A DNA stretch of 32,425 bases from an uncultured Mycoplasmatota bacterium (GTDB lineage Bacteria > Bacillota_I > Bacilli_A > RF39 > UBA660), in the NCBI GenBank assembly GCA_946403755.1, contig CAMJBC010000010.1, positions 1 through 32,425 on the forward strand. Reading direction: 5' to 3'. The position numbers and the translations under genes are program-made. The notes beneath the pieces were generated by a model that saw only the letters and a program-made list of their open reading frames with translations, ran no database searches and was not told where the DNA came from. Below are positions 1,931-29,731 of this stretch, piece after piece (positions within the stretch are counted from its first letter, which is position 1; each line of letters begins with the position of its first letter).

Positions 1931-1956
1931 GATTCATAATTTTATGAATCTTTTTT
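1931..1956 (+). terminator. Rho-independent terminator after glmS
   Basis: GATTCATA (1931-1938) pairs perfectly with TATGAATC (1943-1950) around loop ATTT and is followed by six T. An A-run before the stem also lets it work on the other strand. Confidence 0.85.
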
Positions 1957-1972
1957 ATTTACTTTCAACTTG

Positions 1973-1981
1973 TGATATAAT
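1973..1981 (+). promoter_or_regulatory. Extended -10 promoter for the two-helix/hydrolase gene pair
   Basis: TG, one base, then TATAAT (1976-1981), just after the glmS terminator and 25 bases before the next start codon. No convincing -35 is seen, which an extended -10 can tolerate. Confidence 0.5.
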
Positions 1982-2006
1982 TTTAATTAGAGATAGGAGA
2001 ATTAGT

Positions 2007-3113
2007 ATGTTGTCTATATGTGATAATGCAGATGTTTTATCTACAATGAGAATTGTTAAGATATGTATACAAGTTATTAAGATAATTGTTCCAATTATTT
2101 TGATGATTACTATTGCTATGTCATATACTAAGGCAATAGCAAGTAATGATGAAAATGCTGTTAAAAAAGCACATCAATCTATGATTAAGAAAGCTATTGC
2201 TGCAGCTATTATTTTTTTAGTACCAACATTAGTAGGTATAATAGCCAAATTAACTGTTAATAATCTTGAATATATGAAATGTATAGCTAATGCTAATTCT
2301 GCTGGCATATCTGAAGTTAGATATAGTGAAGCTGTTGAATTAATTAGTGTAGCTAGAAAATCATTAAATGAATCTGATTATTTAAGAGCAAAATCTGCTG
2401 TTCTTGCTATAGAAGATGAATCTAAAAGAGCTTCTCTTACAAGAGATTTAAATGCTATAGCTAATTCTATTAATAATAAAAATGCGCAACAAAATAATAA
2501 TACACAAAATAATCCGTCTAATACTCAAACAACTCCACAAAGTAATCCAAATAGTCAAAATACACCTGCTACTCAAGTACAACCTCAAGTACAAGGTGCA
2601 TATAAATATTCAATATTTATGGGTGACTCAAGAACAAATGGTATGAAGAGTGTTACAAATTCATCAACTGATTTTATTATTGCTAAAGATGGTGCTAATT
2701 ATACTCATTTAGATGGGCATATTAATCAAGCAAAACAAATATTAAATAAATATCCAGATACTAGTTTTAATATAGTATTAAGTTATGGTGTTAATATGCC
2801 TAGTGGTATTAATACTTATTGTAGTAAATATCAAAATTTTGTTAATAGTATTAATTCTAAACATAGAATATTTATTATATCTGTTAATCCTGTAGATGAT
2901 AATAGAAGTCCATATGTTAAGAATAGTGATATAGCTTCTTTTAATAAAAAAATTAAAAGTTGTGTTTCTGGTAGTAATGTTCATTATTGTGATGTAAATA
3001 GTGCAGCATCTCTTTCAACATGGATTAGTTCTTATATTAGTGATGGTATTCATTATAATAGATCAGGATATAGTTTTATATATAATCAAATAAGTAAATG
3101 TATGGGTAAATAA
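2007..3113 (+). CDS. Two-helix membrane-anchored SGNH/GDSL-type hydrolase
   Basis: 368 residues from the ATG at 2007. An upstream in-frame ATG at 1944 lies inside the terminator; AGGAGA at 1995-2000 and alignment with the next gene both favour 2007. Residues 1-100 form a small module with two hydrophobic helices (about 16-41 and 62-85) joined by a charged loop, a topology like VirB2/TrbC pilins. A Gln/Asn/Pro/Thr-rich linker (about 158-195) follows. The C-terminal domain has SGNH-hydrolase signatures: GDSRTNG with Ser208, GVNMPSG as a block III-like segment, and SDGIHYN with Asp346 and His349. SGNH enzymes are esterases or acetylhydrolases; the substrate here is unknown, but a cell-surface polysaccharide or peptidoglycan ester is likely. 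The first 95 residues closely match the N-terminus of the following gene. Confidence 0.75.
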   Translation: MLSICDNADVLSTMRIVKICIQVIKIIVPIILMITIAMSYTKAIASNDENAVKKAHQSMIKKAIAAAIIFLVPTLVGIIAKLTVNNLEYMKCIANANSAGISEVRYSEAVELISVARKSLNESDYLRAKSAVLAIEDESKRASLTRDLNAIANSINNKNAQQNNNTQNNPSNTQTTPQSNPNSQNTPATQVQPQVQGAYKYSIFMGDSRTNGMKSVTNSSTDFIIAKDGANYTHLDGHINQAKQILNKYPDTSFNIVLSYGVNMPSGINTYCSKYQNFVNSINSKHRIFIISVNPVDDNRSPYVKNSDIASFNKKIKSCVSGSNVHYCDVNSAASLSTWISSYISDGIHYNRSGYSFIYNQISKCMGK

Positions 3114-3125
3114 AGGAGAATAAAT

Positions 3126-4418
3126 ATGTTATCAATATGTGATAGTGCAGATGTTTTATCTACTTTAAGAATTGTTAAAATAATTATTCAAATTATTAAA
3201 ATAATTGTTCCAATTATATTAATAATTACAATGGCAATGTCTTATACAAAAGCAGTAGCAAGTAATGATAATGATGCTGTAAAAAAAGCACATCAATCTA
3301 TGATTAAAAAGGGTATTGCTGCTGCAGTAATATTTTTGGTTCCAACTTTAGTAGGTATAATAGCTAAGTTAAGTGCTAATAATTATGATTATATGAAATG
3401 TATAGCTAATGCTAATTCTGATGGAATAGATAGAGCATATACTGATCAAGTAAGTACTTCTATAGATAATTTAAGTTCTAATATTACATCTAGTGAATAT
3501 AATAGATTATTATCAGATATAAACAAAATAAAAAATCCTACTATTAGAAATCAGGAATTAAATAAATTAAATAGATATATGGTATATGCTGTAATAAATG
3601 ATGGCCTTGCTAATTTAGTTAATAATAATACTGAAGAGAATAGAAAAAAAGTACAAGATGAAATAAATAAATTAAGTGATAGTGATCCTCAAAAGAAAGT
3701 ATTTCAAGATAAATTAAATCAATATAGTTCTGGTAGTAAAAAACCTGGGGTTAATCTTGGTATAGCATCAGGTTATTATAAAGGACATAATGGTTCTCTT
3801 GATTATTATGTATATTTTCCACCAGAAGCTACTACTAATATGCCAGTAATATTATGGTTACATGGAGATAATCCTAGAATAGAATGGATTAAGAATAATC
3901 ATGTTGGTGAAACTGCATATAAAGCAGGTGTACCAGCAATAATGATAGAACCTTATGGTGGGGCTGATTTTGGTCAAAGATCTAATCCTGGTTGGGCAGA
4001 AGGAGGTCTATTACCAAATTTAAAAAATATAGTTGAAGAAGTATGCAATAAATATAGTTGTGATAGATCTAATATTAATATTGGAGGTCACTCAAGAGGA
4101 GCAATAGGTACATGGTTAATGGTATCTAAATATCCTAATTATTTCCATGCTGCTGCTCCAGTTAGTTGTTGTGCTTATGGAGACTTTAAACCAAAAAGTT
4201 TTTCAGGTATGAAAGTATGGGCTTGGCGTGGTAGTAATAAAGGTGTAGGAGATGATAATGACAATATATATGGTTCTTGTATGCAAAGTAATGTAAATGC
4301 TGTAAAGCCATATGCTAAAGTTGTAAAGTATACTATTCAACCTAATACTACTCATGGTGAAGCAACTGATAAATTACAAAGAGACCCTGAGTTTGTCAAA
4401 TTTATATTTTCTGATTAA
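3126..4418 (+). CDS. Two-helix membrane-anchored alpha/beta-hydrolase (esterase/PHB-depolymerase-like)
   Basis: 430 residues; AAAGGAGA sits just before the ATG and the gene lies 12 bases after the previous one, so the two are probably co-transcribed. Residues 1-100 repeat the preceding protein's anchor almost residue for residue (LSICD-ADVLST--RIVKI; SYTKA-ASND; KKAHQSMIKK), with two hydrophobic helices. A helical, polar middle region follows. The C-terminal half is an alpha/beta-hydrolase: an oxyanion segment with LWLHGD, nucleophile elbow GGHSRGA with Ser323, an Asp-rich loop after WAWRGSNKG, and catalytic-type His410 in TTHGEA. This resembles the feruloyl esterase/PHB depolymerase group. 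Substrate unknown; if the hydrolase domain is outside, it would act on an extracellular ester. Ends in a strong terminator. Confidence 0.75.
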   Translation: MLSICDSADVLSTLRIVKIIIQIIKIIVPIILIITMAMSYTKAVASNDNDAVKKAHQSMIKKGIAAAVIFLVPTLVGIIAKLSANNYDYMKCIANANSDGIDRAYTDQVSTSIDNLSSNITSSEYNRLLSDINKIKNPTIRNQELNKLNRYMVYAVINDGLANLVNNNTEENRKKVQDEINKLSDSDPQKKVFQDKLNQYSSGSKKPGVNLGIASGYYKGHNGSLDYYVYFPPEATTNMPVILWLHGDNPRIEWIKNNHVGETAYKAGVPAIMIEPYGGADFGQRSNPGWAEGGLLPNLKNIVEEVCNKYSCDRSNINIGGHSRGAIGTWLMVSKYPNYFHAAAPVSCCAYGDFKPKSFSGMKVWAWRGSNKGVGDDNDNIYGSCMQSNVNAVKPYAKVVKYTIQPNTTHGEATDKLQRDPEFVKFIFSD

Positions 4419-6305: not shown

Positions 6306-9008
6306 ATGTTTAAAAGACTTTTTGAAATTAAATATAATAATAAATTATTTGCAGTTTTTGTTAATGATAAACATAGATATGCTTTTATGGAAATCAAAGA
6401 CGGTGAATTAATTTATCCTGATTATGAAGACTTTAAGCATCTTTTTGAAGTATTTAATGTTAATAATGGTGTACTTACTTCTCCTATGATTGGTGAAAGA
6501 TTAGATGAGAAAGTTAATTTTAAGGGAACATTATTATCTCTTATATATACAGTATCTTTAATGTTTCCCATTGGATTACATATTGATCATATAGTAGATG
6601 AAAATAATAAATCTATTACAATAAAATATCAAAATGAAGAGATTGAAAAAGATTATGTTAATCCTGAAAGTGTTAGAGCATTAAATGCATATTTAGGATT
6701 TAGAGATATAACTAAAGAAGAAGTTTTTAATGCAATAGATAACAATGAAAGTTTTAATGATAGACAAAGAGAAATAACTAAAGCTATTATAGAAGCAAAA
6801 ATGGAAATAAATCCTAATATTGATTTAAGATTAATATATGAAAATGTTAAAGATATTAAGATTGAATATAGAACATCTGAAAAAATACTTAATGAATTAA
6901 AAGTACATGCATTAGGATGTTATTGTTCTTGGATAAATACAATTTATTTAACTTCTGATGATGATGTTTTATTTGGACATGAAATTAGTCATGCTATGCA
7001 TAACTATTCTAGAAGAGTAAACAATAGAGAAGTATATGTAACAGCAGGTAGAAGTTCACTACAAGAGTGCATGACTAATAAAGAAGCTAATATGGGACTT
7101 GGTATTAAACAAGAAAAATTTGGTGAAGATGAGAGAACTCTTGATTTTCTTCTAGAACATGCAGATAAATTTGATTTTAGTGTATATGATGAGTATGGAT
7201 TAAATCCTTTATTTGATGAATTAAAAAGTAAATATCCTGATGCTGATATCGAATATATTATAGATTTTTTCAATGGTGCTCATGACGCTGTTGTGAATGA
7301 TATGAATTTTGATATAAGTATGTTTGATAATGAATATTTACTTGATCAATTCTTTAACATGTCAATTCAAAGTATAAATAAATCAAATGTATTTGATGAG
7401 TTAGATATTTTACTACAATTAATTGGTACAAATGAAGAATGTGCTAAAAAATATAGTGAAAAATATTATAAGTATTTAATTGATAATTCACTTATTAACA
7501 TTGATTTTAATTTAGATACTATTGATTATATTGTGTATAAAGATAATAATGAATTATATTTGGGTACTAAGAATAATGAAGATAATTGTGTAAATATACC
7601 TTTAACTACTAAAAAGAAACTTATGATAATTAAAGACTATTGTGAAGGAATAGATATTTTTAGTAATGAATATGTCTCAAATTTAATTACAAGTTTTGAT
7701 ATTATAGATAATAATTATATTAAAGATAAATCATCTGAAGAAATTATAAAATCTTTTGAATTAATATTTGAAAAAACAATTGAAAATTGTTCTACTTTAG
7801 AAGAAATGCAAGAAGAGTATTTTCTATTTATTGATAGAACAGAAGAGTTAGATATAACAAATTCTAACTATAGAGATGCATTAATGCTTTTACATAACAA
7901 TAATTATTTCTTTGATAAATATATACAAATATGCAAAGAAAAAGGATTAATTAATAATGAAACATTTATTAATAACATTGATTCTATAATAATACTAGAT
8001 GGAAAATATTATTTAGTTAAGTCAATTGATTATACATATTTACCACGTAATACTCTTAAACGTTATGAATACGAATATACTATAGATTCTGAATTTAATG
8101 ATAGCCTTACTAAAATAGTATATTACGATGAAAACTTTAATGAAAAAGAATTAATTATTAATAAAACTGTTTATTCTATAATTGATTTAAAAAATAAAGG
8201 TAAAATAAAATTTCTTATGTCTATAAATAATGGTAATAATAGTTTATCTCAAGAAACTATTAAACAAGTTATGGATGAAGTAGGTATTGAAGAGATTAGT
8301 TATTCTAAAGCATTTACTTTATCAAATGGTGAAGTAATATATGATGGAGAGTTGGATGATAGTGTCTTTATAGAATTTGGTAAAAATAAAGAAGGACAAA
8401 TAACTTATCAAATTAGTAAAGATGATACTGTTATATATAAATCATGCGATGATTTTGAATCTTTAAGTTCAAAAATAAGTTATAAATTATTTTTAGATGT
8501 AGTACCTGGCGAAGATGATTATATGGATAGTTTGTTAACTAATGAAAATATATGTGAAGGATTATTCTTTTTAGAACCAATTATGAAAGAAGTAAAAGTT
8601 AATTGGATACCAGCTGAAAAGACTGTTGTACGTCATAATCAAGATGGAACAGAACAAGAATATACTTCATATTCTTATAGACGAGATGTTGATTTTATTA
8701 AACCAGTTTTAGTAAGCCTAGATGGTCAGTTATGTTATGCAAGAGATATAACTGTTACAAGTTCTCATAAAGATTCAAATCTTTATATTAATTATCCAGA
8801 TGGTAGTAGAGATATAGTTATAGATTTAGCTAAAGATAATTTATTTGATTATGAAGAAGAATTTTATTTTGAATATCTAGAACACTATATAGATTTATTT
8901 GTATTACAACCTAATGAAAATGGTGTTATAGAATTAAGTAAAGAAGAATTACATAGATTAATCTTAGAAGATTTTACCGATATATATGATAATGAAATGA
9001 AAAGATAG
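6306..9008 (+). CDS. Large protein with a gluzincin-type HExxH zinc-peptidase motif
   Basis: 900 residues, acidic and Asn/Asp/Glu-rich, with no signal peptide or obvious membrane helix, so probably cytosolic. The recognisable feature is GHEISHAMH with His225-Glu226-x-x-His229. It is followed about 25 residues later by LQECMTNKEA, where Glu254 (or Glu260) could be the third zinc ligand, the arrangement of gluzincin metallopeptidases. The region around the motif (about 130-340) is probably the catalytic domain. The remaining 550 residues have no family I recognise; they contain repeated SIDYTYLPRN/VYYDEN-like beta-rich segments that look like substrate- or partner-binding repeats. The GH13-like gene starts 8 bases downstream, so the two are likely co-translated. 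Peptidase activity is inferred from the motif only. Confidence 0.55.
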   Translation: MFKRLFEIKYNNKLFAVFVNDKHRYAFMEIKDGELIYPDYEDFKHLFEVFNVNNGVLTSPMIGERLDEKVNFKGTLLSLIYTVSLMFPIGLHIDHIVDENNKSITIKYQNEEIEKDYVNPESVRALNAYLGFRDITKEEVFNAIDNNESFNDRQREITKAIIEAKMEINPNIDLRLIYENVKDIKIEYRTSEKILNELKVHALGCYCSWINTIYLTSDDDVLFGHEISHAMHNYSRRVNNREVYVTAGRSSLQECMTNKEANMGLGIKQEKFGEDERTLDFLLEHADKFDFSVYDEYGLNPLFDELKSKYPDADIEYIIDFFNGAHDAVVNDMNFDISMFDNEYLLDQFFNMSIQSINKSNVFDELDILLQLIGTNEECAKKYSEKYYKYLIDNSLINIDFNLDTIDYIVYKDNNELYLGTKNNEDNCVNIPLTTKKKLMIIKDYCEGIDIFSNEYVSNLITSFDIIDNNYIKDKSSEEIIKSFELIFEKTIENCSTLEEMQEEYFLFIDRTEELDITNSNYRDALMLLHNNNYFFDKYIQICKEKGLINNETFINNIDSIIILDGKYYLVKSIDYTYLPRNTLKRYEYEYTIDSEFNDSLTKIVYYDENFNEKELIINKTVYSIIDLKNKGKIKFLMSINNGNNSLSQETIKQVMDEVGIEEISYSKAFTLSNGEVIYDGELDDSVFIEFGKNKEGQITYQISKDDTVIYKSCDDFESLSSKISYKLFLDVVPGEDDYMDSLLTNENICEGLFFLEPIMKEVKVNWIPAEKTVVRHNQDGTEQEYTSYSYRRDVDFIKPVLVSLDGQLCYARDITVTSSHKDSNLYINYPDGSRDIVIDLAKDNLFDYEEEFYFEYLEHYIDLFVLQPNENGVIELSKEELHRLILEDFTDIYDNEMKR

Positions 9009-9016
9009 GATAGTTT

Positions 9017-9926: not shown

Positions 9927-9954
9927 TTGACAATTATTATTATTTATATATAAT
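9927..9954 (+). promoter_or_regulatory. Strong sigma-A-type promoter of the RiPP operon
   Basis: Perfect -35 TTGACA (9927-9932) and perfect -10 TATAAT (9949-9954) with 16-base spacing, starting 5 bases after the upstream stop codon. It drives a leader of about 140 bases ahead of the precursor gene. With 29734-29762 and 22071-22099 it is one of the few promoters in the window with a good -35. Confidence 0.8.
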
Positions 9955-9971
9955 AAACATTAATTAAAGGG

Positions 9972-10035
9972 GGTTGCCCAATATTAATTTGCTATATAGA
10001 GGGCAAACTTTTTGTGGAGTTTTGTCCTCTTTTTT
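9972..10035 (+). promoter_or_regulatory. Attenuator-like leader: alternative hairpins ending in a terminator
   Basis: A terminator hairpin pairs AGAGGGCAAA (9998-10007) with TTTGTCCTCT (10021-10030, one G-U pair), with extra pairs possible toward the loop and a T-run at 10030-10035. Its 5' arm can instead pair upstream: TTGCCC (9974-9979) with GGGCAA (10001-10006). The two pairings exclude each other, the classic layout of a transcription attenuator or riboswitch expression platform. No known riboswitch class is recognised; the ligand, protein or ribosome that would choose between the states is unknown. Confidence 0.6.
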
Positions 10036-10041
10036 ATAACG

Positions 10042-10266
10042 TACACAACATAGGAGTCTATGTTTAATAAATATTTTAATTAGTAGAAGGAGGGGTTTAA
10101 ATGAAAAAAGTATCTTTAAAAAATGATATTGTTAAAAATTTAAAAACAAATCTTTCAAATAAAAAAATCAAAATTTCTTTTGGAAACAAAATAGGGTTGG
10201 GTTACGATGGTTGCGGAACCCATACTCACAAATAGTAATTAACTAAACAACTTCCTATGTTGTGTA
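10042..10266. repeat. 14-bp perfect inverted repeat flanking the precursor peptide gene
   Basis: TACACAACATAGGA (10042-10055) is the exact reverse complement of TCCTATGTTGTGTA (10253-10266); 197 bases lie between and hold the whole precursor gene with its ribosome site. The left arm can also fold locally (CATAG 10049-10053 with CTATG 10058-10062). The right arm ends about 8 bases before the TAGGAGG ribosome site of the maturase (10274-10280). It could be an RNA stem that loops out the precursor reading frame, a site for DNA inversion, or a processing stem. A chance 14-bp match at this spacing is unlikely even at this AT content. Confidence 0.85.
10101..10235 (+). CDS. Putative RiPP precursor peptide
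   Basis: 44 codons with a near-perfect ribosome site AAGGAGG (10087-10093) seven bases before the ATG. The peptide has a Lys/Asn/Leu-rich N-terminal part (residues 1-27, leader-like, amphipathic) and a sharply different C-terminal part, GLGYDGCGTHTHK (32-44), rich in Gly with one Tyr, one Asp, one Cys and two His: a core-like segment. It lies between a strong promoter/attenuator leader and a radical SAM/SPASM maturase gene 53 bases downstream, the standard arrangement for radical-SAM RiPPs. A single Cys rules out multi-Cys families such as SCIFF. A thioether from Cys38, or a cyclophane at Tyr35 or His41/His43, are chemically reasonable guesses. I do not recognise the family, and no cleavage site is assigned. 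Confidence 0.8.
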   Translation: MKKVSLKNDIVKNLKTNLSNKKIKISFGNKIGLGYDGCGTHTHK

Positions 10267-10288
10267 ATTTATTTAGGAGGTTGAAAAA

Positions 10289-11866
10289 ATGAGAAGTCCA
10301 TGGTTAAGCCGTGAATATGAAAAATCTAATGATGTAGTGGTTACTCAAGTAAAGGGTAAATATGAACTTAAGAACAAAAAAACTGGTTCTAGCATTCTTT
10401 TAGGAAAAAGAGAATATGATAAATATGAAAAGAATGCATTTAATGAAATAGAATGGGAAAAACTATTTCTTAGAGGATTAGCAGTAGATAAGAACTGTAA
10501 AGATTTAGTAATAGATGGTTCTTTTGATTTAGCTAGTAAGAAATTTATTAAATCTAAGAAAGTAGAAAGTTTTCCATTAAAAGTAGGAAGAAAAACATAT
10601 AAGATTCTTATTAATCCTGATATGGGATCTTGGATGGCTCTTGATGAAAAAGAGTTTGAAAGATATGAATCTGATAAATTAACTCAAGATGAATGGTTAA
10701 GTTTATTTATTAGAGGTCTTGCTGAAGATGAAGATCATACTGAAGTTGATTTTGATTTTCCATTACCAGCAGATTATCCAAGTGTTATAGTTGTTAATAT
10801 TACAACTGGATGTAATTTAAGATGTAAATATTGTTTTGCAGATTGTGGCCCATTTAAGGGTGAAGATATGACTGAAGAAGTTATGGATGCTACTATAGAT
10901 AGTATGTTATCTATGCCACAAGTAAAAGTTATTACATTTGAATTCCAAGGTGGAGAAGCATCAACTAATGTTCCTGGAATGAGAAAGTTTATTGAAAAAG
11001 CTGAAGCTGCAAAATCTAAATATGATAAATTAGTAAAATATAGAACTGAAATAAATTGTGTAGCAGTTACTCAAGAATTAATAGATCTAGTTAAAGAATT
11101 CAATGTTAGTGTTGGAGTAAGTCTTGATGGTCCAAAAGAAATGACTGATCAAACTAGAGTAGATATTAATGGAGTAGGAGCTTATGATAGAATTGAACAA
11201 GGTATTAAGAAATTAAGAGATAGTGGTATTTATATTGATGGTGCTGTATGTACTATTGGTCAACATAATGTACATTATCCAAGACAATTAATGGAATACT
11301 TTGATTCAGTTGGTATGAATTTTAAACCAAGACCAGTAAATATTTTAGGTAGAGAAAAAGAAAATCATTTAACTACTAAACCTGGTGAATGGGCTGAGTG
11401 CTTTAAAGAAATGCATCAAATGAAAGATAAAGTTGATGTTGAGAATTTCTCAGTACATATTTTTGAAGAAAATGTATATACTCCAATTAGAGATTATATT
11501 TGTTTAAGATATCCATGTGGAGCTGCTAGAGAATTAGTATCAGTTAATCCAAATGGAGATGTATTCCCATGTGATGGTTTCAAAGGTGAACCTAAATTTG
11601 TTATGGGAAATGTTTTAAATGAAAAAATAGAAGATATGTTAAAGAAACCTGAAATAGTAGAATTAAGAAGTAGAACATATAAATCTATTGAAAAATGTAG
11701 TAAATGTATGTTTAGAGGTATGTGTTGTTCTTGTTGTTATTCTGCTTATGGTAAATTTGGATCTGTATATAGAGAGGACCCTCATTGTGTAGATAGAAGA
11801 CAAATGTATATTTATTTAATGCAATCATGGCTTAAAGAAAATACAAAAGGAAAAGTAAATGAGTAG
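10289..11866 (+). CDS. Radical SAM/SPASM peptide maturase with tandem N-terminal repeats
   Basis: 525 residues; TAGGAGG ribosome site at 10274-10280. The radical SAM cluster motif is CNLRCKYC with Cys175, Cys179 and Cys182 binding the [4Fe-4S] that cleaves SAM; FQGGEA and the GVSLDGP-type segments fit the barrel. The C-terminal SPASM region carries Cys405, Cys410, Cys428 and a cluster CSKCMFRGMCCSCC, enough for two auxiliary iron-sulfur clusters. This architecture is typical of enzymes that form thioether or carbon-carbon crosslinks in ribosomal peptides. Before the barrel are two copies of a roughly 45-residue unit (about 25-67 and 104-147; each ends EW--LF-RGLA-D), which could be the leader-binding region. 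The substrate is presumably the 44-residue peptide just upstream. The last 8 bases overlap the next gene. Confidence 0.9.
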   Translation: MRSPWLSREYEKSNDVVVTQVKGKYELKNKKTGSSILLGKREYDKYEKNAFNEIEWEKLFLRGLAVDKNCKDLVIDGSFDLASKKFIKSKKVESFPLKVGRKTYKILINPDMGSWMALDEKEFERYESDKLTQDEWLSLFIRGLAEDEDHTEVDFDFPLPADYPSVIVVNITTGCNLRCKYCFADCGPFKGEDMTEEVMDATIDSMLSMPQVKVITFEFQGGEASTNVPGMRKFIEKAEAAKSKYDKLVKYRTEINCVAVTQELIDLVKEFNVSVGVSLDGPKEMTDQTRVDINGVGAYDRIEQGIKKLRDSGIYIDGAVCTIGQHNVHYPRQLMEYFDSVGMNFKPRPVNILGREKENHLTTKPGEWAECFKEMHQMKDKVDVENFSVHIFEENVYTPIRDYICLRYPCGAARELVSVNPNGDVFPCDGFKGEPKFVMGNVLNEKIEDMLKKPEIVELRSRTYKSIEKCSKCMFRGMCCSCCYSAYGKFGSVYREDPHCVDRRQMYIYLMQSWLKENTKGKVNE

Positions 11867-12488
11867 TAACCAGTTTATAGTTGAAGCTCAAGAAACTGGT
11901 AAAACAACATATTTATTTAATGAAATAGAAAGATTATTAAAAGAGGGTTCTGGTATTATAGTGATGGATTCAGCAACTGAACATGCTGATAAATCATTAT
12001 TAAGAAAAGTTTCTAGTAAATATGATAATTCATGTGTTATAGATTTAAGAGATGAAAGACAAGTTGTATTAGGAAATATAGATATAAATGATTTTATAAA
12101 TAATTATAAAAACTATTTTCCATTTAATGAAATAATGAATAATAGAGATAAAATCATTTGTTTTGACTTGTCTTATTTTCTAGAAAGAGGACATGATGAA
12201 TATGATGAAACTGGTGATATGAACCTATATAGATATTATAGAGGCTTATATAATGCATTATCAGAGCAAATAGCATTAACAATAATATTAATGGAAAGGG
12301 AAAAATTAATTAGAAATTGTTTTGTTGTAATGGATGAAATAGAATTTCCTGTTACTGAATATACTATTGATCAGTTAGAAGATGGTATATCATTTTTAGC
12401 ATCTGTTCATCCTGAAAATGCATTTGGAACTTTTTATGAAAGTTTTAGTAGATTAAAATTCCAAAAATATCAAATGAGAAAGGAGTAA
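11859..12488 (+). CDS. P-loop NTPase-like protein of the RiPP operon
   Basis: 209 residues; its ATG lies inside the maturase stop region (8-base overlap), so translation is probably coupled. A Walker A-like stretch near the N-terminus, EAQETGKTTY, has Gly14-Lys15-Thr16 but Glu9 where the first Gly is expected. A Walker B-like strand, CFVVMDEIEF, has Asp159-Glu160. Between them, IIVMDSA and KIICFDLSYF look like further core strands. This suggests a small, degenerate AAA/HerA-like ATPase. No family is recognised and its role is unknown; it could energise processing, act in immunity, or regulate the operon. Its tight placement between maturase and helD argues that it belongs to the pathway. Confidence 0.55.
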   Translation: MSSNQFIVEAQETGKTTYLFNEIERLLKEGSGIIVMDSATEHADKSLLRKVSSKYDNSCVIDLRDERQVVLGNIDINDFINNYKNYFPFNEIMNNRDKIICFDLSYFLERGHDEYDETGDMNLYRYYRGLYNALSEQIALTIILMEREKLIRNCFVVMDEIEFPVTEYTIDQLEDGISFLASVHPENAFGTFYESFSRLKFQKYQMRKE

Positions 12489-12492
12489 TAGT

Positions 12493-14526
12493 ATGAGTAT
12501 AACTAAGGAACAATTAGAAGAAGAAAGAAAACATCTACAAAGTATTCTTGATGTTATTAAAACTAAAATAGAGCATAGCGATTTATCTATTGAAGACAAG
12601 AAGAATGCTATTACTGAAATGAAAAGATATATTTGGGAAAATAATGCTATGTTAGATGAAGTTGAAATAGCAACAAGTAGATATAATGTTGAAACAAGTG
12701 TAGATCAAACTAATGATGATATTAGAAGACTTGAAAAATTAAGAAAATCTATGGCTAGTCCATATTTTGGTAGAGTAGATTTTGAAGATGATGAAGGTTA
12801 TTTAGATAAATTATATATTGGACTTAATGGTATTCAACAAGGCACTAAGTTATATGTATTTGATTGGAGAAGTCCAGTAGCAAGTTTATTTTATAATTAT
12901 GGAGTAGGTCCTTCATCTTATGAAGCACCTGTTGGCACTATAAATGGACAAACTGTTTTAAAAAGACAATATAAAATAAATAACGGTGTACTTGAAAGAT
13001 GCTTTGAAAGTGATATGAATATTGATGATGAATATTTACAAGAATTATTATCATCTTCATCATCAGAAAAAATGACTAATATAGTTAATACTATTCAAAG
13101 AGAACAAAATGAAATAATTAGAAATTTAAAAGATAGATATTTAATTGTTCAAGGAATAGCAGGTTCAGGAAAAACAAGTGTTGCTCTTCATAGAATAGCT
13201 TATTTGTTATATAGAGAAAATCAATTACAATCAAGAAATGTATTAATTTTTTCACCAAATGATGTATTCTCAACATATATATCAAATGTACTTCCAGAAC
13301 TAGGTGAAGATAATGTATTACAAACAACATTTAGTGATTTTGCTCGTTCTTATATAAAAGGATATGATTCTATAGAAAGTTTTACTTCTTTTATAGATAG
13401 ATTTTATAGAGAAGAAAAAAGTGATAAAGAAAGTTTTAAAGTTACTAAACATAAATTATCAGATGAATTTAAATCTGAAATAGATTCATATATTGAAGGA
13501 TTAAAAGAAAGAATAGCATTTGATAAAAGTATAGTTGTTAATGATAAAAGATTTAGTTCTGAAGAGTTAAATAATTTATTACATGGTTCATATTCAAAAA
13601 CACCATTATTACATAGATTAGATTTAATAGCTGAACATATATGTGATTCTTGTAATATTAATTATGAAAGATATGGTGAAAATGTTAAATCAAAATTATT
13701 AACTGCTTTAGGAAGTAAAATAGATATAAGAAAGCTTTATGGAGAACTAATTGGTGATAAGAATTTCAAAAATAAAAAGACATTAAGATATGAAGATTTA
13801 ATACCAATGATGTATTTATATTTTGAATTAAATGGATATCCTAAAGGTAAAGATATTAAACATGTTATTATAGATGAAGCGCAAGATTATACTTTATTAC
13901 AATTTGAAATGTTAAGAAAAATATTTGGTAATGCATCATTTACAATACTGGGAGATACGCATCAAACAGTTAATCCATATTATATGTATGATAGTTTAAA
14001 TAATGTAAATAGTGTATTTAATAATGAAGGTAAATATATTGAATTATTAAAATCATATCGTTCTAGTGAAGAAATAATAGATTATTCAAATAAAATACTA
14101 GGTATAAATAATGCATGCTCTATTAGAAAGAGTAATTCTATACCAGTATTATTAAGAGATACTACTAGTGAAAATGAAATAGAACAATTAGTTTCTGACA
14201 TTAAATATATGAAACAACAAGGTATGAAAAAAGTTGCTATTATAACTAAGAATAATGCTGAAACCAAAAGATTATATGAAGCATTAAAACCATATTTTGA
14301 TAGAATGGGTAAAGTAGAAGATTCAGGTAGAATTGTTAGAGGAGATGTAGTCGTAATGCCATCTTATATATCTAAAGGATTAGAATTTGATGGTGTAATT
14401 GTTTATACTGAAAGAAATCATAGATACAAAGAAAAAGATAAACATTTATTTTACGTTGTATGTACAAGAGCTCAACATAGTCTAGCAGTTTATAATCAAG
14501 AACCTGTATTAAAAAGGACATTATAA
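12493..14526 (+). CDS. helD: HelD-like RNA polymerase-recycling motor (UvrD/Rep superfamily 1)
   Basis: 677 residues; AAAGGAG ribosome site just upstream and a 4-base gap to the previous gene. The N-terminus is a long charged coiled coil (about 1-90), the arm HelD inserts into the RNA polymerase secondary channel. It is followed by the family-typical KLYVFDWRSPVASLFYNY segment, then Walker A GIAGSGKTS (221-229) and Walker B VIIDEAQDYT (from 458). C-terminal superfamily 1 motifs include LGDTHQTVNP, LLKSYRSSEEI, SKGLEFDGVIVY and VCTRAQHSL. HelD proteins release stalled RNA polymerase from DNA, and the actinobacterial HelR subgroup protects against rifampicin. Its place inside a peptide biosynthesis operon is unusual and suggests either self-protection or incidental co-transcription. 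Confidence 0.88.
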   Translation: MSITKEQLEEERKHLQSILDVIKTKIEHSDLSIEDKKNAITEMKRYIWENNAMLDEVEIATSRYNVETSVDQTNDDIRRLEKLRKSMASPYFGRVDFEDDEGYLDKLYIGLNGIQQGTKLYVFDWRSPVASLFYNYGVGPSSYEAPVGTINGQTVLKRQYKINNGVLERCFESDMNIDDEYLQELLSSSSSEKMTNIVNTIQREQNEIIRNLKDRYLIVQGIAGSGKTSVALHRIAYLLYRENQLQSRNVLIFSPNDVFSTYISNVLPELGEDNVLQTTFSDFARSYIKGYDSIESFTSFIDRFYREEKSDKESFKVTKHKLSDEFKSEIDSYIEGLKERIAFDKSIVVNDKRFSSEELNNLLHGSYSKTPLLHRLDLIAEHICDSCNINYERYGENVKSKLLTALGSKIDIRKLYGELIGDKNFKNKKTLRYEDLIPMMYLYFELNGYPKGKDIKHVIIDEAQDYTLLQFEMLRKIFGNASFTILGDTHQTVNPYYMYDSLNNVNSVFNNEGKYIELLKSYRSSEEIIDYSNKILGINNACSIRKSNSIPVLLRDTTSENEIEQLVSDIKYMKQQGMKKVAIITKNNAETKRLYEALKPYFDRMGKVEDSGRIVRGDVVVMPSYISKGLEFDGVIVYTERNHRYKEKDKHLFYVVCTRAQHSLAVYNQEPVLKRTL

Positions 14527-14527
14527 T

Positions 14528-15043
14528 ATGAAAAAAATATTATGTGGAAGTTCATGTGTTAAATATATTTTAGATAAGTATAATGTTGATTATAAAGATC
14601 TAAATATAAATATGAATTGGATATCTGAATTAGCTATATATTTAAAATCTAAGAATATAAATATTAATGTTAAATGTTATAAAAGTAATTTATATGATGA
14701 TTATAAAAAATTAAAAGATTTATCTTTTGATGGATTTAAATATATAGATGAATTATTAAAACTAGGAGTATCTATTAAAGAAGAAAAACTAACTAAAAAA
14801 GAATTAATAAGTGAAATAGAAAATAATGAATATATTATTTTATGTGTAGAATCTTCTAAACTAAATAATGATAAAACTATGAATGGTGGTCACTATATAG
14901 TATTAAATGGTATTAAAGATAACAAAGTTAATGTTATAAATCCAATTAAGGATAAATATGAAAATAGATTAGAAGATTTAAATGATATAATTAATTATTG
15001 TAAAGATTATGGTTCATGGAGAATCTTAGTAAAGGAGAAATAA
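14528..15043 (+). CDS. C39-like cysteine peptidase
   Basis: 171 residues starting one base after helD. The N-terminus LCGSSCVKYILDKYNVD matches the active-site helix of papain-like peptidase C39/C39_2 domains, with Cys6 as probable nucleophile. GGHYIVLNG supplies His122, and VNVINP puts Asn138 where many members have Asp. The usual upstream Gln of the oxyanion hole cannot be present because Cys6 is so close to the start. There is no signal peptide and no fused ABC transporter, so it would act in the cytosol. C39 domains normally cut leaders after double-Gly motifs; this one could trim the precursor at 10101, but the peptide has no classical GG site. A non-peptidase C39-like fold is the alternative. 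Confidence 0.65.
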   Translation: MKKILCGSSCVKYILDKYNVDYKDLNINMNWISELAIYLKSKNININVKCYKSNLYDDYKKLKDLSFDGFKYIDELLKLGVSIKEEKLTKKELISEIENNEYIILCVESSKLNNDKTMNGGHYIVLNGIKDNKVNVINPIKDKYENRLEDLNDIINYCKDYGSWRILVKEK

Positions 15044-15585
15044 TGATAAAAGTAATAGCATTTGATTTAGTTGGAGTTTTGGTTAATGAAAAAGATGTTG
15101 AATTAACAAAAGAAGAAGAAAAGTTAGAAAGAATGTTTGGACCAAATATTGATGATGCTGGATATATGCAAGAAGCTAGAAAAATATTTGATAAAGATTC
15201 TATACTAATGAGAACAACTGAAGATTTAATAGAAAAATTATATAAAGTTAGAACAGAAAATTTATTTAAAAATATTAAAGAAAAAAATAATGATGTTAGA
15301 ATAATTATTGCTACTAATCATGTATCATTTGTAAGAGGATTTATTGGTGAAAACTTAGAAGCAGATTATTTAGATGATGTATTAATATCTGCTGAAATGC
15401 ATAAGATAAAACCTAATAGTGATTTTTATGAACATATATTAAATAAATTTAATATTAAACCAGAAGAATTATTATTTGTAGATGATAATATAGAAAATGT
15501 AAAAGGAGCAGAAAAATTAGGTATCAAAACTATTAAAGTTAATAAAGATACTGACATTTTAAAAGAAGTAGAAAAATTTATATAG
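15043..15585 (+). CDS. HAD-superfamily hydrolase-like protein
   Basis: 180 residues from the ATG at 15043-15045, which overlaps the previous stop by one base and has AAGGAG at 15032-15037; an earlier in-frame ATG at 15016 has no such site. HAD motifs are visible: motif I AFDLVGVL with Asp8, motif II IIIATNH, motif III KPNSDFYEHIL, and motif IV LLFVDDNIENVKGAEKLG. Val10 replaces the second Asp of the phosphatase signature DxDx(T/V). This resembles the YihX/dehalogenase-type HAD-IA branch, or may mean weak or no phosphatase activity. The substrate is unknown. It sits within the RiPP operon, 12 bases before the methylase gene. Confidence 0.75.
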   Translation: MIKVIAFDLVGVLVNEKDVELTKEEEKLERMFGPNIDDAGYMQEARKIFDKDSILMRTTEDLIEKLYKVRTENLFKNIKEKNNDVRIIIATNHVSFVRGFIGENLEADYLDDVLISAEMHKIKPNSDFYEHILNKFNIKPEELLFVDDNIENVKGAEKLGIKTIKVNKDTDILKEVEKFI

Positions 15586-15597
15586 TAGGGGGATAAT

Positions 15598-16302
15598 ATG
15601 GGCAAGTTATTTGTCGTTGGAGTAGGTACAGGCAAATATGAAGATTTAACTATTAAAGCATACAATACTTTAGTAGAATCAGATCTAGTTTTTTGTGATG
15701 AAAAAATGTATCAATTATTATCTACATATTTAGATAAATCTAAATTAGTAAGTAATAGTTATAATGCTACTAGACAAAGATGCATTAATGCAGTAAATGC
15801 AGCCCATGATAAAAAAGTATCAATAGTTGGAAGTGGTGATACAGGTATATATGGTATTGCTCCAATAATACTTGAATTAAGTAGTGATACTGAAGTAGAA
15901 GTAATACCTGGTATGACATCATTTCTAAGTGCAGCAAGTACTCTTGGTTCTCCTTTAACAAAAGATTTTGCTGTTATATCATTAAGTGATAATTTTAATG
16001 AAAAAGATGCTACTAGAAATAGAGTAGAAGCAGTAGCTAAAAATAACTTTGCAATTGTATTTTATAGTCCATGTAATTCTACTCATGATAATTTAATAAT
16101 GGCTAGAGATATATTATTACAATATAGAGATGCTAGTAATGCAGTTGGTATAGTTAAAAATTTAGGTAGTAGTGACCAACAAGTAATTATTACAAATATT
16201 AGAGATTTAAATATAGATGATGTTGATTCTTTAACAACAATAATTGTTGGAAGAGATGATACTAAAGAAAAGAATTTAAAATTAACAACTCCGTTATATT
16301 AA
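15598..16302 (+). CDS. Solitary CobJ/CbiH-like tetrapyrrole methylase
   Basis: 234 residues; AGGGGG at 15587-15592. The fold signatures of SAM-dependent tetrapyrrole methylases are clear: N-terminal LFVVGVGTGKYEDLT, a VSIVGSGDTGIYG loop, EVIPGMTSFLSAAS, NFAIVFYSP and a C-terminal TTIIVGRDDT. The closest named family appears to be precorrin-3B C17-methyltransferase (CobJ/CbiH), which normally lies among other cobalamin genes. None occurs here. The same superfamily includes borosin alpha-N-methyltransferases, which methylate peptide backbones, so in this setting a peptide substrate is possible. It is the last gene of the operon and is followed by a terminator. Confidence 0.8.
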   Translation: MGKLFVVGVGTGKYEDLTIKAYNTLVESDLVFCDEKMYQLLSTYLDKSKLVSNSYNATRQRCINAVNAAHDKKVSIVGSGDTGIYGIAPIILELSSDTEVEVIPGMTSFLSAASTLGSPLTKDFAVISLSDNFNEKDATRNRVEAVAKNNFAIVFYSPCNSTHDNLIMARDILLQYRDASNAVGIVKNLGSSDQQVIITNIRDLNIDDVDSLTTIIVGRDDTKEKNLKLTTPLY

Positions 16303-16330
16303 AAAGAAGGATTATTCATCCTTCTTTTTT
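16301..16330. terminator. Bidirectional terminator between convergent operons
   Basis: GAAGGAT (16306-16312), loop TATTC, ATCCTTC (16318-16324), flanked by five A on the left and six T on the right. It ends the RiPP operon on the plus strand and the minus-strand pair from the right, and overlaps the last codons of the latter. Confidence 0.9.
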
Positions 16331-16710
16331 AATACTCTTCCTTTTCCTTTTAAATCTAGTTTATCAACAACTGGTTTACCAAGTTTTTCAGATAATTCTT
16401 TTACCTTTAATAATTTACGATATATAGCATCTCTAGCTAGTGAGAATATAGTTCCTCCTTCAACTTCAGGTGGAGCATCTATTATATTTCCTTCGCTATC
16501 CATAAATTTATAAGATATTTTTATTTCTTCAATACATGTATGATCTAAATATTCTCTATATTGTTTTTCAGCATTATTTTTAACAGCAAATAATAACATA
16601 GCTAATTCCATTTGTTGAAGAATATCATATCTTATTGCTTCTAGTTTTTTAATTCTTAATAAACCTTTATAATTTATTATATTTCCATTATTATCAGAAA
16701 AAAACAACAT
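16312..16710 (-). CDS. Hypothetical protein, partner of the gene at 16694-17287
   Basis: 132 residues if translation starts at 16710, where the ATG overlaps the last 17 bases of the upstream gene in another frame; an earlier in-frame ATG at 16761 would add 17 residues that merely shadow the upstream gene. The ribosome site is weak, so translational coupling is likely. The chain has a helical middle (ILQQMELAMLLFAVKNNAEKQYREY) and a lysine-rich tail ending VLKKKDE. GNIINYKG and EGNIIDAPPE are two beta-hairpin-like repeats. No family recognised and no membrane segment. Confidence 0.55.
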   Translation of the reverse strand: MLFFSDNNGNIINYKGLLRIKKLEAIRYDILQQMELAMLLFAVKNNAEKQYREYLDHTCIEEIKISYKFMDSEGNIIDAPPEVEGGTIFSLARDAIYRKLLKVKELSEKLGKPVVDKLDLKGKGRVLKKKDE

Positions 16711-26014: not shown

Positions 26015-27865
26015 ATGATGTACCATAGAATCTTTTCAAGTATAGGATTTCCATTGTGCTCATTATTTTTTGTTATCTTTATTGTATTAATGTATTTAAA
26101 CAAAAAAAGATACAAAAATATTGAAAATACAATATTTATATCATTATTAACACTTTCTTTTTGTTGTATATTTTCAGAATTTTTATACGTTTATTTTTTA
26201 AGTTCAGAGACTGCTAGTGAAATAGTAAGAATAGTTTCTTGTAAAATGTTTTTAATATTCATGATTACATGGATAATGGCTTTTTGTTTATATTTGTTAG
26301 CTTTATTAACAAAGAATCAAGATCCAGATATTAAAAGAACTAAAAGAAGAAAGATATTTCCAGTCGCACTGTTATTAGAAATAATATCAGTTATTTTAGT
26401 GTGCTTCTTAAGTATAGATACTACATCTAGTAGTAATAATGTATATAACTTTGCTGGTGATGCTACATTAGTTGCTTATGTATTAGGTGGCTTTGATATT
26501 TTACTTGCATTATATACTATAGCATTTAGACCAGATTTAGTTAAAAAGGGTCAAAGAATGATAATGGGGTTAGCTATACTTTTTGTAGCAGTAACATTAT
26601 TATTACAATTCTTATTTCCTGCATTAGACTATAATATTCAAAACTTTCAATTTACTTTACTTTTACTAGCACTTTATTTGACATTAGAAAATCAAGATAA
26701 CAAATTATTAACAGAACATGAAGAACAAAAAGCTCAAGCAGAAGAAGCTAATAAAGAACAAACAGAATTCTTAACAAGTATGTCACATGAAATAAGAACA
26801 CCAATGAATACAATAATTGGATTTAGTGATGCTTTAATAAGAGAAGGCGCTACTAATGAAGAAGTTGTAAGAAGAGATGTTAAAAATATTCATAGTGCTG
26901 CTATTACATTATTAGATTTAATAAATAATATTCTAGATTTATCAAGAATGGAATCAGAACAAGAAAAAATAATTGAAAAAGAATTCAATACACAAGATGT
27001 TGCTATTGAATTAGATACAAGTGTTAAAAATAAAATTGAAAATAAAGATATTGAATATAGTATAACTATTGATCCTAATTTACCTCAAACTATGAAAGGT
27101 GATTATGTAAAAGTAAATAAAATAGTTTGTAATTTAGTAGGTAATATTATTAACTATACTAATGATGGTAGTATTGCTATAAGAATAGGATTTGTAAAAA
27201 CAGATGGTAGTGACTGTAGTTTATATTTTGAAGTATCAAGTAATGGTAGTGAGATACCTCAAGATGAATATGAAAAATATTATTTAAATGAGGAAGAAAA
27301 TAATAAAATAAATACTTATGCTTTAGAATTACATGTTGCTAGATTATATGCCCAAATGCTTGATTCTAAAGTTGAAACAGTTAAAGCAGATAGATTCAAT
27401 ATTGGATATAAAGTAGAAATACCATTACAAATAATTAATCCAACTCCAATAGGAGATATATCTGGATTGTTAGCTAAAGATGAAGAAATAAAGGATGTAA
27501 CTTTTGAAAATAAAAAAGCATTAATAGTAGATGATAATACTATTAATATTAAATTAATAGAAAGATTCTTAACTGAATTAAAATTCAATGTAGAATCTGT
27601 TACAAGTGGAAATGAATGTATAGAAAAAATTAAAACAAATGATTATGACATCATATTTTTAGATCATATGATGCCTATTAAAGATGGAATTCAAACATTA
27701 AGCGAAATGAGAGATTTAAAAGCTAATATGCCACCAGTAATAGCATTAACAGCTAATTCATATGCTGGTGTAAAAGAATTCTATGTAAATAACGGTTTTA
27801 AAGATTATATAGCAAAACCAGTTAATAGAGGAGATTTAATAAATTTAATAAGTAAATATTTATAA
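26015..27865 (+). CDS. Hybrid histidine kinase with degenerate ATP-binding domain
   Basis: 616 residues. About six or seven membrane helices occupy residues 1-225, a 7TM-type sensor region. A HisKA domain with FLTSMSHEIRTP (His258) follows, then an ATPase-like domain, then a receiver with ALIVDDN, Asp550 in IFLDHMMP and a C-terminal AKPV Lys. The ATPase domain keeps an Asn of the N-box (CNLVGNIINYT). Where the partner gene has DTGFGI it has SNGSEI, and where the partner has GTGLGL it has TYALEL. The G1 Asp/Gly and the G2 glycines are lost, so autophosphorylation is doubtful. It is likely a pseudokinase or phospho-acceptor partner of the next protein, 15 bases downstream. AGGGA precedes ATGATG; start 26015 or 26018. 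Confidence 0.85.
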   Translation: MMYHRIFSSIGFPLCSLFFVIFIVLMYLNKKRYKNIENTIFISLLTLSFCCIFSEFLYVYFLSSETASEIVRIVSCKMFLIFMITWIMAFCLYLLALLTKNQDPDIKRTKRRKIFPVALLLEIISVILVCFLSIDTTSSSNNVYNFAGDATLVAYVLGGFDILLALYTIAFRPDLVKKGQRMIMGLAILFVAVTLLLQFLFPALDYNIQNFQFTLLLLALYLTLENQDNKLLTEHEEQKAQAEEANKEQTEFLTSMSHEIRTPMNTIIGFSDALIREGATNEEVVRRDVKNIHSAAITLLDLINNILDLSRMESEQEKIIEKEFNTQDVAIELDTSVKNKIENKDIEYSITIDPNLPQTMKGDYVKVNKIVCNLVGNIINYTNDGSIAIRIGFVKTDGSDCSLYFEVSSNGSEIPQDEYEKYYLNEEENNKINTYALELHVARLYAQMLDSKVETVKADRFNIGYKVEIPLQIINPTPIGDISGLLAKDEEIKDVTFENKKALIVDDNTINIKLIERFLTELKFNVESVTSGNECIEKIKTNDYDIIFLDHMMPIKDGIQTLSEMRDLKANMPPVIALTANSYAGVKEFYVNNGFKDYIAKPVNRGDLINLISKYL

Positions 27866-27880
27866 GAAAGGAGGAAAACT

Positions 27881-29731
27881 ATGGTACCTAAAGTAATATT
27901 AACAATTGGTAGTTTATTATTCTTGTCATTGTTATTAGTAACATATTATTCAAAGAAGTTTAAACTTAAATTGAATAATAGAATATATAGATATTTGATA
28001 GTTCTATCAATTATATTATTAGTAACAGAATTTGCTTATGCAGTTGCGTTCGAAGTAATGAGTAATAAATTTTTATTTGTTGTATTATGGAGATTACACT
28101 GGATATCAGCGATTGTATTATTCTTGTTCATGTATTATTATGTTCTTACTACTATAAAAGATTATCCATATAAAGAACTAGGTGAATTTATTAAAGGTGT
28201 AAAAAGTTGTAAATACTATTCATTATTTACTCTTGTATGTATCATAGTATTTATATTCCTTCCTTTTACAGATATGACAATTGATACATTTAGTTTTATA
28301 CCTGGTACTGCTGCATATTTCTGTGTAGGATATTTTTCAGTAACAATGGCTATTATTATTGTAGAAGTACAAAAGACAGGTAAAGTTCCAGCAGGAGCTA
28401 AATTAGCATTCCTTGGTTCAATAGTATCAATGGTATTAGTTACAATACTTCAACTATTATATCCAGAAATATCATTCTTTGATTTATTAGATACACTTGT
28501 AATTTTCTTCTTTTATTTCTTAATTGAAAATCCAGATTTAAGATTAATTGAAGAAATAGATGAACTTAAACTTACTGTTGAAAGAAGTAGTAAAGCTAAA
28601 AGTGATTTCTTATCTAATATGTCACATGAAATTAGAAGCCCAATGAATGCTATTATTGGATTTAGTGAAACAATAATAGCTGATAAAACATTTGATAGTA
28701 ATAAAGTATTAAATGATATTAATCATATAAAATCATCTAGTAAAAACTTACTTGATATTATTGATAATATTTTAGATATTTCTAAGATTGAAACTGGAAC
28801 AGATACTATTGAAAGTAAGAATTATTCATTAAAAGAATTATTAATAGATTGGACTGGAATAGTTGAAACAAGATTAGAAGGTAAAAAGATTAAATTTATT
28901 CTTGAAGCAGAACAAAATCTTCCTTCTAAGTATGTAGGAGATTCTACTAAGATATTCCAAATAGTATTAAATATTCTAACTAATGCAGTTAAATATACTG
29001 AAGTAGGTAGAATTAAAATGATACTTATAGGTGAAAGATTAAGTGATTCAGTTGTTAAATTAAAATTTAAAGTTTCTGATACAGGTTTTGGAATTAAGAA
29101 AGAAGATTATGGTAAAGTATTCCAAAAATTCTCTAGACTAGATCAAGCTAAAACAAATGAAATAGAAGGTACTGGTTTAGGACTTGTATTATCTAAAAGA
29201 TATACTGAATTAATGGGTGGAAAGATTTGGTTTGAAAGTGAGTATGGTGCTGGAACAACATTTTATTTAGAAATACCACAAAGAGTACTTGATAATACAC
29301 CTATAGGAAATATTAATGAAAGTATTGAAGAGTCTAATAATCGTCAATTATTAGATTGCACTGGTACTAAAGTATTAGTTGTTGATGATGATGAATTAAA
29401 TCAAAAAGTTACAAAGAGATTACTAAGTGCATATAATATTACAGTAGAAACAATTAGTGATCCAGAAGAATGTATATACAAGATTAAAGCTGGCGAACAA
29501 TATGACTTAATATTCTTAGATCATATTATGCATAATATGAGTGGTGTAGAATTATTAAAAGTATTAAAAGGTTTACCAGGTTATAAAATTCCTCCAGTTG
29601 TAATGCTTACTGCTAATGCTATTACTGGTGTTAGAGAACAATATTTAAAAGAAGGTTTTGATGAATATTTATCTAAACCAATTGATATAAATGAATTAGA
29701 TAAAGTAGTAAATGTATTTTTAAAAAAATAG
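27881..29731 (+). CDS. Hybrid histidine kinase, intact
   Basis: 616 residues, the same length as its upstream neighbour; AAAGGAGG ribosome site. A multi-helix membrane region (1-220) is followed by a HisKA domain with FLSNMSHEIRSP (His249). The HATPase domain is complete: ILTNAVKYT N-box, VSDTGFGI G1 box, FSRLD F-box and EGTGLGL G2 box. The C-terminal receiver has VLVVDDDE, Asp547 in IFLDHIMHNMSG, and Lys in SKPID. It probably phosphorylates its own receiver and perhaps that of the degenerate partner. No separate response regulator with an output domain is encoded nearby, so the final target is unknown. The ABC-2 operon follows from its own promoter. Confidence 0.92.
   Translation: MVPKVILTIGSLLFLSLLLVTYYSKKFKLKLNNRIYRYLIVLSIILLVTEFAYAVAFEVMSNKFLFVVLWRLHWISAIVLFLFMYYYVLTTIKDYPYKELGEFIKGVKSCKYYSLFTLVCIIVFIFLPFTDMTIDTFSFIPGTAAYFCVGYFSVTMAIIIVEVQKTGKVPAGAKLAFLGSIVSMVLVTILQLLYPEISFFDLLDTLVIFFFYFLIENPDLRLIEEIDELKLTVERSSKAKSDFLSNMSHEIRSPMNAIIGFSETIIADKTFDSNKVLNDINHIKSSSKNLLDIIDNILDISKIETGTDTIESKNYSLKELLIDWTGIVETRLEGKKIKFILEAEQNLPSKYVGDSTKIFQIVLNILTNAVKYTEVGRIKMILIGERLSDSVVKLKFKVSDTGFGIKKEDYGKVFQKFSRLDQAKTNEIEGTGLGLVLSKRYTELMGGKIWFESEYGAGTTFYLEIPQRVLDNTPIGNINESIEESNNRQLLDCTGTKVLVVDDDELNQKVTKRLLSAYNITVETISDPEECIYKIKAGEQYDLIFLDHIMHNMSGVELLKVLKGLPGYKIPPVVMLTANAITGVREQYLKEGFDEYLSKPIDINELDKVVNVFLKK

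Follow-up and report, generated by a model that had tools for sequence, protein, structure and literature searches.

A conserved radical SAM/SPASM gene block with its own HelD paralogue, a putative RiPP operon of small-genome Bacilli-like bacteria

A radical SAM maturase encoded directly after a short peptide raises the question of whether the two genes, together with those that follow them, form a RiPP pathway, and what the product of such a pathway might act on. We addressed this in a 32,425-nucleotide stretch of DNA from an uncultured Mycoplasmatota bacterium (referred to here as the window). An ORF and coordinate check of the window recovered the seven ORFs of the preliminary description, all on the forward strand, with the positions and spacing claimed for them: the peptide and maturase genes are separated by 53 bases, the maturase and P-loop genes overlap by 8, gaps of 4 and 1 bases precede the genes for HelD and a C39-like peptidase, the latter overlaps the HAD gene by 1 base (the HAD start being the ATG at 15043, inside TAATG), and 12 bases lie between the HAD and CobJ-like genes. 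Upstream stands a promoter, TTGACA-16-TATAAT (9927–9954, forward strand), that matches the consensus at 12 of 12 positions and ranked first among 63 promoter-like sites in a regional scan; promoter-like TTGAC boxes were found by eye at the equivalent place in loci L013–L015, L017, L018, L020, L034 and L035. At the other end, a terminator hairpin (about 16301–16330, assigned to neither strand; -12.3 kcal/mol, z -4.8) is common to the operon and to a convergent gene whose end is at 16312. As a description, one promoter and one terminator is incomplete, for a second terminator-like hairpin lies in the leader (9998–10030), between promoter and peptide; an automatic scan called no terminators in the region, yet both hairpins fold well.

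The distribution of the maturase is narrow and patchy, with copies in 9 of 291 sampled genomes of the family and in 11 of 385 genomes of the order, every one of the latter from that same family. Among 84,980 species genomes, a scan that detects close relatives only returned 11 loci, and almost all of these carry titles of Bacilli, Tenericutes or Mycoplasma MAGs. Merging the searches gave 14 distinct loci, window included, all from small-genome Bacilli-like MAGs. Within these, the P-loop and HelD genes follow the maturase in all 14 (in L019 on a separate contig of that genome), the C39-like and HAD genes are present in 13 of the 13 loci that reach that far, and gene order is constant in all loci but L020, where the HAD gene lies upstream. 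An accessory CobJ-like gene accompanies 8 of 13 loci, in linkage in seven and at a separate place in the genome in G217, so that of the seven-gene unit proposed earlier six genes are constant, namely those for the peptide, maturase, P-loop protein, HelD, C39-like protein and HAD protein. Since the genes flanking this block change from one genome to the next, the block behaves as a single unit, and by comparison of these genomes it is a conserved and co-inherited one.

The maturase is absent from three other genomes of the same genus; a flanking gene sought in same-genus genomes to place the insertion site had no match there. Maturases of the other loci are 70–85% identical to the window copy, whereas GlmS, where found, is 45–50% identical between the same genomes, and horizontal spread is therefore possible. 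Neither the maturase nor the peptide was found in plasmids, nor the maturase in viral contigs; a degenerate DNA pattern of the peptide core gave zero matches in viral contigs, and among 395 genomes of the class it matched in the window's genome only. Several neighbouring features were recorded by the way. In L020, similar ORFs (KIGT[L/V]NL..N starts; exonuclease/endonuclease-like by eye) lie on both sides of the operon (8228–9010 and 15569–16363), and in L015 about 580 bases (7713–8293) are inserted between the C39 and HAD genes. Elsewhere in the window are two neighbouring ORFs (1944–4418) with a near-identical membrane N-terminal part (MLSICD..ADVLST.RIVKI) and different C-terminal ends, and two adjacent hybrid sensor kinases of 616 residues with receiver domains (26015–29731; by eye) and a similar layout.

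The putative precursor, MKKVSLKNDIVKNLKTNLSNKKIKISFGNKIGLGYDGCGTHTHK (44 residues; 10101–10235, forward strand), adjoins the maturase on its upstream side in 14 of 14 distinct loci, which upholds the earlier expectation that it would be conserved there in relatives. Because the peptide is 79–91% identical beside the maturase in the 13 further loci, it and the other ORFs of the operon are not chance reading frames. Its C-terminal core, GLGYDGCGTHTH, is invariant and has accumulated synonymous changes only, with zero amino-acid changes from G32 to H43 over 13 distinct loci. When the window copy was compared with each other locus, codons 24–43 showed 4–11 synonymous and 0–1 non-synonymous changes, and the leader (codons 1–23) showed 4–9 non-synonymous changes. 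A leader that varies more than a core under purifying selection is what is looked for in a RiPP precursor, as is conserved linkage of an encoded precursor to a modifying enzyme; both are found here, the linkage in all 14 loci, which lends support to the reading of peptide and maturase as a RiPP pair. The peptide had zero family matches in Pfam, NCBIfam and PHROG, and its core sequence was not found in the literature searched.

The maturase (10289–11866, forward strand) scores above the cut-offs for PF04055 (Radical_SAM) and PF13186 (SPASM), and carries a CX3CX2C motif, whose cysteines (C175, C179 and C182) are invariant, together with a Cys-rich SPASM end, placing it within the radical SAM/SPASM proteins. 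It falls below every NCBIfam equivalog cut-off. The best match by E-value is to HxsB (TIGR03978; 167.9 bits over residues 105–519, cut-off 370), and the operon lacks the HxsC and HxsD partners of a His-Xaa-Ser system. The PapB model NF047865 gives 148.1 bits against a cut-off of 340 (residues 167–484, E 3e-43), and in place of repeated CX3D/E motifs the core has a single Cys, in YDGCGTHTH. For SCIFF the score is 122.5 bits against 425 (TIGR03974), with a precursor of one Cys; the top PDB sequence match is nevertheless the thioether-forming maturase CteB (5wgg, 1.4e-27). By sequence the cluster follows radical SAM RiPP logic with a peptide outside described families and a maturase under all known-family cut-offs, and the prospect that it would coincide with a well-characterised RiPP class was not borne out. 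In an AlphaFold 2 (AF2) model the N-terminal 150 residues were modelled well, as two similar tandem beta-rich/helical units, and our guess is that these bind the leader; the core was modelled poorly (mean pLDDT 59.7), and we therefore make no argument about substrate from it. The maturase of L035 (G217:C1) is reported to have one in-frame TAA near the alignment end, its ORF being slightly shorter (519 residues).

Domain searches bore out the radical SAM/SPASM, HelD and HAD assignments and, by a weak match above threshold, the C39-like one, and placed the last protein among the TP-methylases. The P-loop NTPase (11859–12488, forward strand) has zero Pfam matches and, in NCBIfam, only sub-cut-off chance matches to GroES. 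Its model is good (pLDDT 81) and has a VirB4/HerA-like fold (VirB4: Z 11.8, 4.2 Å, 167 residues), and CobA/BtuR scores little lower (Z 10.5, 3.6 Å, 146 residues); as VirB4, HerA and CobA(BtuR) lie within about 1.5 Z of one another, we assign the protein no single function. The C39-like cysteine peptidase (14528–15043, forward strand) matches PF03412 weakly (26.9 bits against a gathering score of 22) and has no PDB match; the catalytic residues C6 and H122 are invariant in 11 sequences. At 171 residues it stands alone and lacks the PCAT-type fusion to an ABC exporter, and we put it forward, as a guess, as the candidate leader peptidase. A HAD-family phosphatase-like protein (15043–15585, forward strand) comes next.

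The last gene of the operon (15598–16302, forward strand) encodes a CobJ-like protein with a tetrapyrrole-methylase fold: it scores 197.7 bits against the TIGR01466 cut-off of 246.35, below what is required of a precorrin-3B C17-methyltransferase. The gene occurs in 7 of 12 genomes with the operon versus 0 of 28 sampled genomes without it, and the window's genome (89% complete) has one other TP-methylase, of RsmI-like length, and no other corrin methylase. A role in cobalamin synthesis was rejected on these two grounds, absence without the operon and lack of companion corrin methylases. No borosin methyltransferase structure was among the 27 PDB matches of the protein.

HelD is an RNA polymerase recycling motor, and the copy encoded here (12493–14526, forward strand) is a class I HelD by its score against NF041464 (HelD_BACSU; 504.7 bits, cut-off 419), and almost all of it aligns with the B. 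subtilis protein (6wvk, residues 7–386 and 407–667). Protection of RNA polymerase against rifampicin is reported for HelD in B. subtilis (PMC12802891) and for HelR in actinobacteria (PMC10719064). No HelD beside a peptide maturase was found in the HelD literature searched; nor was a fixed partnership of HelD with a RiPP cluster in the literature searched, the supplementary tables of large RiPP surveys lying outside that search.

The region around the peptide gene also shows two signs of conserved RNA structure that the preliminary description had missed, an attenuator-like leader and an inverted repeat. The leader hairpin, AGAGGGCAAACUUUUUGUGGAGUUUUGUCCUCU (9998–10030, forward strand; -14.9 kcal/mol), is followed by a U run, and none of 60 shuffles was as strong. 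Similar hairpins were picked up automatically in L010, L012, L014, L016 and L035; those of L013, L015, L019 and L034 were recognised by eye, the scan having settled there on the antiterminator stem or overlooked the site. The 5' arm of the leader hairpin is complementary to an upstream segment, GGGGGUUGCCC (9969–9981, forward strand; GUUUGCC in relatives), whose pairing across eight loci lies well above that of shuffles and slid registers; 93.8% of cells are paired, a fraction inflated by the segments having been cut by hand and chosen by eye for complementarity, and four pairs have changed on both sides, which is the stronger evidence. Covariation thus supports the interpretation of 9955–10035 as a putative attenuator with an antiterminator. 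No Rfam gathering-score match was found in the window, and the leader region gave only a sub-threshold chance match. L017, L018 and L020 lack the leader attenuator; these are the basal loci, and they are likewise without the rare-codon core hairpin described below.

Wherever both ends can be read, the peptide gene is flanked by an inverted repeat of 12–14 bp (ACACAACATAGG/CCTATGTTGTGT), which is conserved across genera. The 5' arm of the repeat, TACACAACATAGGA (10042–10055, forward strand), occurs in each locus whose upstream sequence can be read and could also form a competing local hairpin with CTATG just downstream; the 3' arm, TCCTATGTTGTGTA (10253–10266, forward strand), lies upstream of the maturase ribosome site. 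In a test that left out L011, whose contig begins there, 96.4% of cells were paired, with double changes at two pairs; the one in L017/L018 probably arose only once. In all loci examined, folding at full length gave a structure closed by this stem. The 5' arm is the sole copy on its strand in the window's genome, and a multi-copy mobile-element end was rejected since neither arm recurs in the genome when up to one mismatch is allowed.

Taken together, we think it likely that the operon serves the biosynthesis of a single, highly conserved RiPP and works broadly as set out here; that the peptide is a genuine RiPP seems very probable, and its link to RNA polymerase is tentative, a little short of an even chance. 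We infer the chemical steps, leader cleavage, protection by HelD and the target as follows. The maturase would bind the leader, perhaps via its two N-terminal domains, and install a crosslink or other modification in YDGCGTHTH, the likeliest chemistry being a thioether from the single Cys, because the relatives are of PapB and HxsB type. The C39-like peptidase would then remove the leader, possibly after an IGLG stretch, and the CobJ-like enzyme, where present, may methylate the product or perform another SAM-dependent step. The dedicated HelD copy would remove or protect RNA polymerase, so that transcription would be the most likely target of the mature peptide, which could inhibit RNA polymerase, with HelD protecting the producer, or could be a regulator within the cell. 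The leader attenuator may gate expression, and the level or stability of the peptide mRNA relative to the enzymes is probably set by the long-range stem that encloses the peptide gene. A fuller version, in which the invariant radical SAM product founds a new RiPP class and targets bacterial RNA polymerase, with self-protection by the dedicated HelD paralogue, tailoring by an orphan CobJ-like enzyme in some lineages and control by a new leader RNA and the stem, strikes us as rather unlikely.

The operon encodes no transporter or other export gene, and this, with the invariant core, is the main argument against a secreted antibiotic, an invariant core being unusual for an antimicrobial in an arms race. 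It also counts against the main reading that HelD could serve genome maintenance instead of immunity. The missing transporter and the invariant core, and the His/Cys/Asp-rich end with its THTH, would suit a peptide that becomes a cofactor, metal-binding peptide or signal inside the cell, comparable to PQQ or mycofactocin, with HelD, the P-loop protein and the HAD protein belonging to the physiology it serves and no antibiotic involved. We regard this as possible, if on the unlikely side: the patchy distribution (9 of 291 family genomes, 0 of 3 other genomes of the genus) speaks against a basic cofactor, and the block holds no partner oxidoreductase.

Another explanation would make the 44-residue ORF a leader peptide that regulates the maturase operon, acting by nascent-chain arrest or as a translation attenuator, with rare codons, coding hairpin and inverted repeat as the switch. 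The conserved stretch is C-terminal and invariant, as in arrest peptides, and is flanked by the inverted repeat; its codon-usage rank is at or below 0.0023 in 11 of 14 loci, an indicative result for codons rare in the window's genome as the frequencies derive from the window alone, and the hairpin in its coding sequence in the window copy (10194–10229) is stronger than nearly all synonymous recodings, likewise in most loci. Yet L017, L018 and L020 encode the same amino acids with common codons, and selection therefore acts on the protein. Nor is the stretch fixed relative to the stop codon: in L020 the final K is replaced and 12 further residues follow (13 past THTH), and the L035 peptide runs one residue beyond the usual end. 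As a regulatory leader would, moreover, leave the radical SAM/SPASM maturase and the C39-like peptidase without a substrate in the operon, we consider this explanation improbable.

It is quite improbable, too, that the pathway consists of peptide and maturase only and that HelD, P-loop, HAD and CobJ-like proteins are co-transcribed housekeeping genes. HelD and HAD proteins do belong to common families, but these partners are kept in every sufficiently long locus, in the same order except in L020, while the flanks differ. Furthermore, the operon HelDs form a single clade of 14 in a phylogenetic tree (support 0.917), apart from the housekeeping HelDs, and the window's genome has a second HelD elsewhere, at about 43% identity to the operon copy. 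In favour of an anti-phage defence module using a modified peptide are matches, via shared domains, of HelD to UvrD-type PADLOC helicases and, weakly, of the maturase to viperin, and the patchy distribution. Against it, the other genes have no specific PADLOC family and there is no phage or plasmid context, and we consider it highly improbable.

If the product of the putative RiPP pathway does act on RNA polymerase, the operon would pair a natural inhibitor with its self-protection factor, and the protective role of HelD could be tested with a cognate ligand, in gut bacteria that have hardly been examined for natural products. The CobJ-like gene would be a clear instance of a corrin-methylase relative with a role other than making corrins, and the attenuator and the stem bracketing the precursor gene make up a compact RNA layout backed by covariation.

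Among known systems, PapB-type ranthipeptide maturases (NF047865; PMC9413430) share the radical SAM and SPASM domains and a core Cys with a nearby Asp. The core here differs in having its D two residues before its only Cys, where PapB has repeated CX3D, and the maturase in having an extra, duplicated N-terminal domain. With the His-Xaa-Ser maturase HxsB (TIGR03978) the likeness lies in a His-rich substrate end; in place of a pair there is one maturase, with no HxsC, HxsD or His-Xaa-Ser repeat peptide. SCIFF, whose maturase CteB (TIGR03974, 5wgg) supplies the top PDB match, is likewise a family with a strongly conserved precursor, but one with six Cys in forty-five residues as against one here. 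Borosin N-methyltransferases provide a case of the TP-methylase fold in a RiPP pathway. As in borosins (PMC8429565), an enzyme of this fold appears to have been recruited to a peptide pathway, whereas the methylase here is CobJ-like in sequence (197.7 bits) and accessory. Finally, the operon HelD resembles B. subtilis HelD (NF041464; 6wvk) and HelR in being a full-length class I protein above the family cut-off, and differs from both in belonging to an operon-bound paralogue clade encoded beside a peptide maturase.
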